From Candidatus Iainarchaeum sp. (GTDB lineage Archaea; Iainarchaeota; Iainarchaeia; Iainarchaeales; UBA10219), in contig JAGVWE010000003.1 in assembly GCA_018304425.1 (NCBI GenBank), forward strand, positions 138,413-202,412: DNA of 64,000 nt. Reading direction: 5' to 3'. This document shows, piece by piece, positions 31,998-36,103 of the stretch. The position numbers were made by a program, and so were the translations under genes. The notes below the pieces were generated by a model that ran no database searches, was not told where the DNA came from, and worked only from the letters and a program-made list of their open reading frames with translations. How positions within the stretch are numbered: the stretch's first letter is position 1; every line of letters begins with the position of its first letter.

Positions 31998-32152
31998 GCC
32001 CCATTGAACCCTGCGGGTGAAATGGGGCACGTCCGCAAGTGCCAGTTGACCAGGGCAGTGTCCTGCAAGGCAGGACACGTTTCCCCGAAGACACAGTCTT
32101 CGGGGCCTCGTCCCCAAGGGGACAAGGTCGCAGGCCTTTTGTAAAAAGGCCT
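31998..32152 (+). repeat. array of five hairpins directly before tRNA-Val
   Basis: Successive near-perfect inverted repeats fill this stretch. (0) 31998-32028: arms GCCCCATT/AATGGGGC, then GA/GA opposed, then ACCC/GGGT. (1) 32058-32078: GTGTCCTGC/GCAGGACAC. (2) 32083-32105: CCCCGAAGAC/GTCTTCGGGG. (3) 32110-32123: GTCCCC/GGGGAC. (4) 32132-32152: AGGCCTTTT/AAAAGGCCT. The tRNA starts one base later at 32154. Hairpins 2-3 joined by CCTC and followed by AAGGTC match a unit in the array at 35886-36048 with paired changes. The only TATA-like element nearby is GTTTAAAAGG near 31939, so the array may be a transcribed leader of the tRNA. No protein gene in 31903-32153. Confidence 0.8.
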
Positions 32153-33500: not shown

Positions 33501-33513
33501 ACCGGGCGGGCAA

Positions 33514-33526
33514 AACCTTAATAACC
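33514..33526 (+). promoter_or_regulatory. promoter of structured RNA copy 1
   Basis: AAACCTTAATAAC is a BRE/TATA element about 25-30 bp before the RNA's first helix at 33548. A nearly identical AAAGCCTTAATAAG lies before copy 2 at 35079-35092, so promoter and RNA were duplicated together. Confidence 0.55.
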
Positions 33527-33547
33527 CGTTAAGCCAATAATCTGCTG

Positions 33548-33628
33548 AGGGGCGACCCGGAAAAGGCGGCGCTAATTTCAAGCTCCCCAAGATTGAAATG
33601 CCGCGCAATAAGAAGGGCACGCGCTCCT
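33548..33628 (+). ncRNA. structured RNA of unknown class, copy 1 (leader of propeller gene)
   Basis: Nested helices are visible: P1 AGGGGCG (33548-33554)/CGCTCCT (33622-33628); P2 CCC (33556-33558)/GGG (33615-33617); P3 GCGGC (33566-33570)/GCCGC (33600-33604); P4 ATTTCAA (33575-33581)/TTGAAAT (33593-33599), with an 11-nt loop GCTCCCCAAGA. Copy 2 at 35132-35217 keeps the same loop and GGAAAA and AATAAG joints while P1, P2 and P3 change in a paired way. It lies between its own promoter and the lipoprotein gene at 33655, so it could be a cis-regulatory leader or a separate small RNA. No class I know fits. Confidence 0.7.
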
Positions 33629-33654
33629 TAGCCACTTATTTGAGGCGCTCGGAC

Positions 33655-34728
33655 ATGAAGCTACCCCTTGCCACAGGCGTTTTGCTGCTTGTTTTGCTGC
33701 TGGGATGCACGAGCCCGCCAAAAACGGGGCCGGAGCGCGCGGTCTATGTCGCCAACGAAAAAGGCGCCAGTCTCTCGGTCGTTGATGCGGCAACCAACAA
33801 AGTCGTGGAAACGATTGCATTGGGCGGCCACCCGCACAACGTCAACGTGAGCGCCGACGGGAAATACTTCTTCGCCACCAACCACTCCGAAGACGAGGAA
33901 GAAGAAGCGGGGAAAAAGGAGGAAACAGAGCACGACGACCACCATGCCGGTGGCGAAAGCTTTGTCCGCATCCTGGACGCGCGAACGTTGCAACTCGTGA
34001 ACTCGATTGCGCTGGAACAATTCGGCGCCCACGTCGTGCCAAGCCACGATGGCAGGAGCCTGTTCGCCTCTGACCAGGGCGCGGACTTCCTGGAAGTCCT
34101 TGACCTGGAGGAAGGCACCAGGCTGTCGCGCATCAAGACCGGGCATGGGCCGCACGGCTTCGTGGTGAGCCCGAACGACCAATTCGTTTACACGCCCAAC
34201 GTGGCAAGCAACGACATAACGGTCATCGACGTTGCGGCGCAAGAAGCGATTGGGACCATTGTCCCGGAATACGGCGGACACGCCTGCGAAAAACCCGTGG
34301 CCATGGGCATTGACACAGGAGGCCGTTATGGTGTTGTTACTTGCGGCGGCAGCTTCGACGCCTACAAGATAGATTTCGCGGAAAAGAAAGCCGTAGGCCG
34401 CGTGGAGTTCAGGAAAGGGGAATACCCAGGCCCCATCCAAACACCCTTACACCCCGACGGAAAAACCCTCTACATCCCGGACATGCGGAACGGCGTGGTG
34501 CACAAGGTTGACTTCGAGTCCTTCAAGCTGTTGAAAGATATCCCTGTAGGAAAGGGCGCGCACGGCATCGCCTTCAGCGCCGACGGGAAAACGGCTTACA
34601 TCACCCTGACCTGGGAGAACGCCCTGGCCGTCCTTGACCTGGCTACGGAGCAGGTCAGGGCCCGCATCCCGGTGGGCGAGGAACCCAACGGCGTGGCCGT
34701 GCGGGGCGGAAAGAACCAGGGATGGTAG
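33655..34728 (+). CDS. lipoprotein with YncE/YVTN-type beta-propeller and His/acidic insertion
   Basis: A signal with lipobox LLLGC (Cys18) anchors a seven-bladed propeller; repeated blades end in motifs such as AVYVANEKGASLSVVDAATN, DNQFVYTPNVASNDITVID-like and KTAYITLTWENALAVLDLAT. Residues 78-100 are a charged insertion (SEDEEEEAGKKEETEHDDHH) likely to bind divalent metal. The ATG at 33655 follows GAGG at 33642-33645; the longer frame from 33598 would run through the structured RNA. It may capture metal outside the cell for the NicO-type transporter upstream. That link is inference. Confidence 0.85.
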   Translation: MKLPLATGVLLLVLLLGCTSPPKTGPERAVYVANEKGASLSVVDAATNKVVETIALGGHPHNVNVSADGKYFFATNHSEDEEEEAGKKEETEHDDHHAGGESFVRILDARTLQLVNSIALEQFGAHVVPSHDGRSLFASDQGADFLEVLDLEEGTRLSRIKTGHGPHGFVVSPNDQFVYTPNVASNDITVIDVAAQEAIGTIVPEYGGHACEKPVAMGIDTGGRYGVVTCGGSFDAYKIDFAEKKAVGRVEFRKGEYPGPIQTPLHPDGKTLYIPDMRNGVVHKVDFESFKLLKDIPVGKGAHGIAFSADGKTAYITLTWENALAVLDLATEQVRARIPVGEEPNGVAVRGGKNQGW

Positions 34729-34730
34729 CG

Positions 34731-35069
34731 TCAAATGGATTGGACCGGGGGCGTTGTGCCGAAGAAGAAGGCAGCCGCTCCAACCAAAGCAAACAGGACT
34801 CCCATTCCCAGGAACACCCAGAAAAACAGGCTGCCGCCTCCAAGGAACGCCTCGACTGGTTGGGCTTCATATGGATTCCCTGGGTTGACTTTTACCGCCA
34901 ACGTTGAACCCGGTGAGTGTTCGTCCGCATAGCGTTGGGCGGCACCGTAATCGCCAGAACCGGGGGACGTGTAAGCGTTCGTGTATTCTTTTCCCTGATA
35001 AGTGAATTTGTATTTCAGGATGCTGCCCCACGCGATGCCGGTGTCCTTGACCCAGCCAAGCCAGCCCAA
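34731..35069 (-). pseudogene. truncated DUF3592-like gene
   Basis: This frame matches the C-terminal two thirds of the complete DUF3592 protein at 35301-35804 (shared LKYKFTYQGKEYTNAYTSPG pattern, then DYGAAQRYADEHSPG and a final membrane helix). It lacks the N-terminal helix, has no ATG (TTG at 35069 is the best start) and is bounded upstream by a stop. The missing 5' part coincides with the promoter of structured RNA copy 2. It may be non-functional or a short membrane protein. Confidence 0.65.
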
Positions 35070-35078
35070 GCCCCAGAA

Positions 35079-35092
35079 AGCCTTAATAAGCA
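35079..35092 (+). promoter_or_regulatory. promoter of structured RNA copy 2
   Basis: AAAGCCTTAATAAG matches the element upstream of copy 1 at 33514-33526, both followed by a GTTA. It sits about 40 bp before the first helix of copy 2. Confidence 0.5.
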
Positions 35093-35131
35093 GTTAGCGC
35101 CTATAATGTGATTGAAAGTGGTTGGAAAAAT

Positions 35132-35217
35132 AAGGAGCCACCTGGAAAAAGCGGTCCTCTTTCAAGCTCCCCAAGATTGAATCAAACCGCATAATAAGCA
35201 AGGCAACGGCTCCTTAC
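35132..35217 (+). ncRNA. structured RNA of unknown class, copy 2
   Basis: Same layout as copy 1: P1 TAAGGAGCC (35132-35140)/GGCTCCTTA (35209-35217), nine perfect pairs; P2 CCT (35142-35144)/AGG (35202-35204); P3 GCGGT (35152-35156)/ACCGC (35187-35191); P4 TTCAA (35162-35166)/TTGAA (35178-35182), and the identical loop GCTCCCCAAGA. No coding region follows on this strand, so this copy is probably a free small RNA, ending near the inverted repeat at 35283-35304. Confidence 0.7.
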
Positions 35218-35282: not shown

Positions 35283-35304
35283 TTAACCTCCCTGCAGGGG
35301 TTAA
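35283..35304 (+). terminator. inverted repeat after structured RNA copy 2
   Basis: TTAACC at 35283 pairs with GGTTAA at 35299, with further C/G pairs inside a TGCA-containing loop. It overlaps the stop codon of the opposing DUF3592 gene and could end either transcript. Confidence 0.4.
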
Positions 35305-35804
35305 AGGTTTTGGCCGGCAGCCGGGGCCACGCCCAGGAATAATACCGCTGCGCCAATCAAGGCAAACCCGATGCCCATGCCGAGGAAAATCATCATAGCC
35401 AACCCCATTCCGCCCAGCAAGGCATCCGCGGGATGGGAGTCATAGGGGTCGGCCGGGTTGACTTTCACTTGAATCGGGGTTCCCGAAAGGTGCTCGTCCG
35501 TGTACCGCTGCGCGGCCCCATAGTCGCTGGAACTCGGTGAATTGAAAGCATTCGTGTAGTCTTTGCCCTCGAACGTGAAAGAATACTTGAGCGTGTTGCC
35601 CCAGGTGACGCTCGAGCCACTGCGCCCCGTGGAACGGTCCTCGAACACGCTGGACTCCACGACCCTGGCATCTATGGAAACCCAGGGCGTGGTCTGCTCC
35701 TTGTACAAGAAGTAACCGCCTAGGCCGGCAAAAACGAGGCCCACCACCAAGAAAAGGGCTCCAACCAGTTTCGGGTTATTGGTTTGATACGAATACAATT
35801 GCAT
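35301..35804 (-). CDS. DUF3592 membrane protein (168 aa)
   Basis: Two membrane helices (residues about 15-35 and 138-160) flank an external beta-rich domain with the DUF3592 pattern: ARVVESSVFEDRSTGRSGSS, LKYSFTFEGKDYTNAF, then GTPIQVKVNPADPYDSHPAD. The ATG at 35804 lies about 25 bp after CCTTTAAATAGG (35828-35839); another ATG at 35813 is in frame. A truncated paralogue lies at 34731-35069. Function unknown. Confidence 0.82.
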   Translation of the reverse strand: MQLYSYQTNNPKLVGALFLVVGLVFAGLGGYFLYKEQTTPWVSIDARVVESSVFEDRSTGRSGSSVTWGNTLKYSFTFEGKDYTNAFNSPSSSDYGAAQRYTDEHLSGTPIQVKVNPADPYDSHPADALLGGMGLAMMIFLGMGIGFALIGAAVLFLGVAPAAGQNL

Positions 35805-35861
35805 GCAAGGCAATAGAAGACCATGGACCTATTTAAAGGTTCCTCCAATGGCAGCTGAGAG

Positions 35862-35873: not shown

Positions 35874-35885
35874 ACCTTTTTACAA

Positions 35886-36048
35886 CCATCAAAAGCTTCG
35901 CTTTTGGTGGCGTCGTCCACGAAGTGGACAACGAAGCCCTGGGAAAACGTCCCCTGCGCGGCAGGGGGCTGGCTTGGCCTATCGGCCTCGCTATTTATGG
36001 CCCACCATCAAAACCTTCGGTTTTGGTGGCCTCGTCCACGAAGTGGAC
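35886..36048. repeat. hairpin array downstream of tRNA-Leu
   Basis: A unit of two hairpins is present twice. Copy a: stem 35886-35896/35900-35910 (11 bp, TTC loop), CGTC, then GTCCAC/GTGGAC (35915-35929). Copy b: stem 36005-36015/36019-36029, CCTC, then GTCCAC/GTGGAC (36034-36048). The first stems differ by a paired G-C to C-G swap next to the loop. Between them lie CCCCTGC/GCAGGGG (35951-35967) and a small GGCC hairpin. The same unit, with a different sequence but the same pairing, is in the array before tRNA-Val. No protein gene in 35814-36103. Confidence 0.8.
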
Positions 36049-36103
36049 AAGGTCTTTAGATGGGCCGACGTATAGCGCGCAGCCGCCGCTATCGTGCGGC
36101 TAA

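Follow-up and report, generated by a model that had tools for sequence, protein, structure and literature searches.

The 64,000-nucleotide stretch of DNA analysed here (the window) carries, 1.6 kb apart, two copies of a real, selected and structured RNA of no recognised class, a finding that is based on two paralogues in one genome. The kind of RNA is ordinary, namely unclassified and lineage-specific. In our interpretation, for which the arguments on the two sides are about evenly balanced, the copies form a small family of independent, highly structured noncoding RNAs of which copy 1 doubles as an mRNA leader. The initial annotation had described two copies, and both were found at almost the coordinates given there. 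The copies and their parts are the following:

33546-33630, + strand, structured RNA copy 1 (own fold, covariation, alifold, single-copy model match)
33546-33554/33622-33630 (P1), 33556-33558/33615-33617 (P2), 33566-33570/33600-33604 (P3) and 33576-33581/33593-33598 (P4), + strand, helices of copy 1
33582-33592, 33559-33564 and 33607-33612, + strand, unpaired parts of copy 1 (loop, joint GGAAAA and joint AATAAG, respectively)
35131-35216, + strand, structured RNA copy 2 (own fold, covariation, alifold, single-copy model match)
35131-35139/35208-35216 (P1), 35141-35143/35201-35203 (P2), 35151-35155/35186-35190 (P3) and 35161-35165/35177-35181 (P4), + strand, helices of copy 2
35166-35176, 35144-35149 and 35193-35198, + strand, unpaired parts of copy 2 (loop, joint GGAAAA and joint AATAAG, respectively)

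The architecture first described for the two copies is borne out in each of its parts. Indeed, the copies do not differ in the 11-nt loop GCTCCCCAAGA, in the whole 22-nt hairpin TTTCAAGCTCCCCAAGATTGAA or in the joints GGAAAA and AATAAG, and the four nested helices are all present in the minimum free energy (MFE) fold of either copy alone (z -2.1 and -3.3). The paired changes proposed for P1, P2 and P3 are compensatory exchanges of G-C/C-G in P1 and of C-G/U-A in both P2 and P3, and P1 contains two further one-sided G-U/A-U changes. The P4 hairpin is invariant, its pairing being supported by energy and identity, without covariation. Every one of the 23 compared pairs is standard in both copies; when the partner strand was slid by 1-3 columns as a control, 33-48% of cells were kept and no compensatory pair appeared. 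The alifold consensus reaches -27.7 kcal/mol as compared to -7.0 +/- 2.6 kcal/mol in column shuffles (z -7.9), none of 1000 being as good, while a per-pair shuffle control, which has low power as two sequences allow few shuffles, gave 65/500. Upon random placement of the 8 observed paired-site changes, all pairs stayed intact in 5-11 of 200,000 trials and at least three compensations arose in 80-93 of 200,000. In addition, a model built from copy 1 alone retrieved copy 2 at 60 bits (E 4.2e-13) as its sole other match in the window.

Searches for known classes and for relatives were then relevant to two further points. That the RNA belongs to no known class is upheld by the Rfam comparison, as nothing came near a gathering score in 4227 families; the best Rfam 15 covariance-model matches, at 18-19 bits against cut-offs of 50-56, lie on the opposite strand. 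The suggested check of related genomes for further copies with paired changes turned out differently. The initial annotation had named a lack of such homologues as speaking against a conserved structure, and no homologue with paired changes was found anywhere searched, so that the claim is carried by covariation between the two paralogues alone. In particular, a two-copy model (R1, at the level of order and phylum) and a structure-weighted one with artificially randomised stems (R2) gave weak matches and nothing convincing in the 86 other genomes of the phylum set, in which the genome of the window is the sole representative of its family. Those of the weak R1 and R2 matches in relatives that were inspected turned out to be in coding frames or to be a hairpin with broken pairs, and twelve-base loop matches in relatives were coding or unrelated. 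No third copy was found in the genome itself (1.48 Mb) with the pattern, R1 or R2, and a weak R2 match on C4 (L102) was rejected as it lies inside coding sequence. The large scans used strict filters, those of GTDB and IMG/VR requiring exact loop-and-joint matches. The exact joint-loop-joint pattern had 14 matches among 84,980 species in GTDB, none of which was recognised by R1; the exact loop-and-joint pattern had no real match in IMG/VR, one chance match in coding sequence being rejected, and phage records gave no match.

Each copy is preceded by promoter-like boxes on the + strand, which is also the strand on which the unpaired parts of the RNA are A-rich:

33512..33542, + strand, copy 1 promoter, AAAACCTTAATAA (BRE/TATA-like) and ATAATCTG, common to copy 2 and resembling tRNA-gene boxes
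35077..35111, + strand, copy 2 promoter, AAAGCCTTAATAA and TATAATGTG (alignment with copy 1, box count)
35112..35130, + strand, extra 5' leader of 19 nt specific to copy 2 (alignment)

A AAARCCTTAATAA box lies upstream of each copy, like the TATA boxes before the tRNA genes of this genome, where upstream boxes include AAAAAGCCTTATAAATG and GGAAAACCTTTATATG. The view that matching promoters had been duplicated along with the RNAs is supported. CCTTAATAA boxes occur in the window only at these two sites (0.06 expected). The motif AAARCCTTWAW occurs three times in the 64 kb of the window (0.15 expected): two of these sites precede the RNA copies, one each, and the third belongs to the codons at the end of the full-length DUF3592 gene. 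The boxes of the RNA copies are probably ordinary archaeal-type BRE/TATA elements, with transcription predicted to start at about 33546 for copy 1 and at about 35112 for copy 2, the latter start leaving 19 nt before P1. This copy 2-specific segment contains TTGAAAG, complementary to CTTTCAA in its own P4, and continues into GGAAAAATAAG, where both conserved joint motifs are joined; this may reflect a fold that competes with the conserved one or the decayed remains of a partial repeat. No U-tract terminator follows either copy, a point against independent RNA genes, and copy 2 leads no open reading frame (ORF). Together with the intron-containing tRNA genes and the gene content, promoters of this type suggest that the genome is archaeal.

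The surroundings of the two RNAs provide information on their history. The locus reads RNA 1, a lipoprotein gene (+), a truncated DUF3592 gene (-), RNA 2 and a second DUF3592 gene (-), with the following coordinates for the genes:

33642..33645, + strand, GAGG, putative Shine-Dalgarno sequence of the lipoprotein gene, 12 nt past P1 and nine bases before the ATG
33655..34728, + strand, YncE-like beta-propeller lipoprotein with a His/acidic-rich insert (Pfam YNCE 1.8e-18; signal MKLPLATGVLLLVLLLGC)
34731..35069, - strand, 5'-truncated DUF3592 protein, adjoining the promoter of RNA copy 2
35301..35813, - strand, full-length DUF3592 paralogue, which together with the truncated one marks a tandem duplication

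The two DUF3592 proteins, the only matches to this family in the whole genome, are 56% identical over 98 amino acids. The first one is devoid of the N-terminal part, and its reading frame is closed by a stop codon at the start of the RNA 2 promoter. Based on the locus order and on this truncation ending at the second promoter, the copies probably go back to an ancient tandem duplication whose unit started at the RNA promoter and stopped midway through the DUF3592 gene; presumably, either the second unit later lost the lipoprotein gene or the first one gained it. Silent sites of the DUF3592 pair have reached saturation (6/32 four-fold sites and 37/98 third positions identical), while the RNA core positions are identical at 34/34 and the helices are altered in paired ways only. 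Thus, if one event gave rise to both pairs, the two RNAs have been under selection, and copy 2, which heads no gene, appears to have been retained because of the RNA itself. This argument would lose weight if the RNA copies arose later than the DUF3592 ones, as they may have done.

The same observations bear on the idea that the two sequences are functionless duplicated leaders, alike through recent duplication or gene conversion. Only two paralogues exist, in one genome, and gene conversion can act on direct repeats at a distance of 1.6 kb; however, the helices have diverged with compensation whereas the core is identical, a difference in treatment not expected from conversion or recency, and synonymous sites of the linked DUF3592 pair have been saturated, which makes this explanation very improbable. 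More improbable still is a mobile or repetitive intergenic element whose fold is a by-product of inverted repeats. Although two copies in one region and the presence of other palindromic intergenic repeats near the tRNA genes of this genome would fit such an element, there are just two copies in 1.48 Mb, and conserved joints and loop, compensatory helix changes and a shared promoter are unexpected for a neutral repeat. An unlikely option, somewhat less so than these two, is that the RNA belongs to a known archaeal class, for instance the H/ACA guides or other housekeeping RNAs, and has diverged strongly from it. Size and rod-like hairpin recall single-hairpin guide RNAs, and the promoters are like those of stable RNA genes. 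Against this stand the lack of any Rfam match near a gathering score and the absence from the copies of class-defining sequences. Indeed, alignment reveals no UGA/GA strand pair of a kink-turn or K-loop in either copy, the position of an ANA box 3' of the lower stem is occupied by GCCAC in copy 1 and by ACAA overlapping P1 in copy 2, so that no box is common to both, and neither copy has RUGAUGA or C/D boxes. Archaeal H/ACA guides do resemble the present RNA in having a hairpin with a large internal loop, a long lower stem and an own promoter, but the RNA described here, beyond its missing kink-turn and inconsistent ANA box, has A-rich joints instead of variable guide sequences.

A stronger competitor, which we nevertheless hold to be doubtful, is a purely cis-regulatory leader of the His-rich YncE-like lipoprotein gene, either a metal-sensing riboswitch or a protein-bound element, with copy 2 as a leftover or repurposed. 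Copy 1 does lie between the promoter and the start codon (ATG) of the lipoprotein gene, from which P1 is separated by just 24 nt that include the GAGG, and its position in this 5' leader is the part of the cis-regulatory claim that stands. The conserved fold is the MFE fold for RNA up to 33665; with more coding sequence, alternatives become equal or better, and longer mRNA folds offer alternatives to P1 of near-equal energy. Yet blocking P1 makes little difference to the GG of the Shine-Dalgarno sequence, which is predicted to be mostly paired in either case, so that the folds point to no clear switch and offer no clear on/off platform. The context is consistent with metal handling, as the gene upstream of copy 1 is NicO-like and its product, like the lipoprotein, is His-rich. 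In the lipoprotein, the His/acidic-rich insert is EEEEAGKKEETEHDDHHAGGE. The metal connection of the locus is only suggestive because the match to the zinc metallochaperone AztD, seen along with NCBIfam beta-propeller repeats in the lipoprotein, is weak and far below the cut-off, and NicO is just under the Pfam cut-off. The gene association recurs in no second genome: of the NicO protein, the phylum contains one close relative, whose gene neighbourhood differs, and for the lipoprotein no relative reached E 1e-15 among 86 phylum genomes. Possibly the lipoprotein was acquired and is metal-binding. As judged from sequence and predicted folds, the riboswitch claim would have no support beyond position. 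Above all, copy 2 is fully intact yet heads no gene; it is mainly because this copy, without an ORF, is apparently conserved that an independent RNA is preferred over a leader-only role.

As for how such independent RNAs might work, the two would be transcribed independently as molecules of about 86-105 nt, each from a TATA-type promoter and each folding into a rod of four stacked helices, after an origin by tandem duplication of the unit from the RNA promoter to inside the neighbouring DUF3592 gene. The purine-rich joint GGAAAA/AATAAG and the 11-nt loop GCUCCCCAAGA would offer an invariant surface, most likely for the binding of a protein partner. Copy 1 would double as the 5' leader in the lipoprotein mRNA, with a possible tuning effect on that gene, and copy 2 may act as a free small RNA in trans. 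The latter role, already suggested at the outset for a copy without a gene, is plausible in that no ORF follows copy 2 and conservation favours it; the target side of the proposal found no counterpart. Indeed, loop complements (TCTTGGGGAGC, at most 1 mismatch) numbered 47 as compared to 35 in a reversed control, and the 30 sites examined were mostly inside genes, with no enrichment at start sites. A simple anti-Shine-Dalgarno mechanism based on the entire loop is thus not supported, as loop complements are not concentrated before start codons. A more ambitious reading, which appears rather unlikely, is that of a new archaeal regulatory RNA class in which the GGAAAA/AATAAG joint and the GCUCCCCAAGA loop would form a ligand or protein site tied to metal handling, deployed as an mRNA leader in copy 1 and as a free small RNA in copy 2.

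Comparison with known systems helps to place the RNA. The 104 orphan candidate motifs obtained by comparative genomics (PMC2864571) are alike in helices with paired changes, invariant joints and loop, lineage restriction and the lack of an assigned function; those motifs are founded on alignments of homologues from genomes and metagenomes, whereas the RNA described here comprises two paralogues from one genome with no Rfam model match. The archaeal L7Ae k-turn leader (PMC6298567) is similar as a stem-loop in an archaeal mRNA 5' leader with potential protein binding, but the present RNA is without the k-turn sequence, one of its copies is without a gene, and its P1 is predicted to be stable without protein. 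Coverage of structured RNAs from uncultured archaea is poor; the RNA presented here adds a compact candidate whose fold, promoter and conserved core are defined, its value being limited as no relative was found outside one genome. A structured leader and a free paralogue in the same genome would allow one to examine whether the two, one in cis and the other in trans, have a common partner.

Other repeated elements accompany the tRNA genes of this genome, some of which contain introns. One tRNA gene is adjoined, at 35885-36050, by two 47-nt repeats that contain the palindrome GTCCACGAAGTGGAC, and this palindrome is also found next to a tRNA-Gly gene elsewhere (L043). A hairpin element, TTTTTACAAAA / TTTTGTAAAAA, present at 32137 and at tRNA loci L027-L056, lies within about 200 bases of 8/30 tRNA genes and of 0/27 other locus centres. 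Finally, TAGCCGCACGAAAGCGGCGGCTGCGCGCT-like hairpins are located 3' of three tRNA genes (L027, L029, L049).
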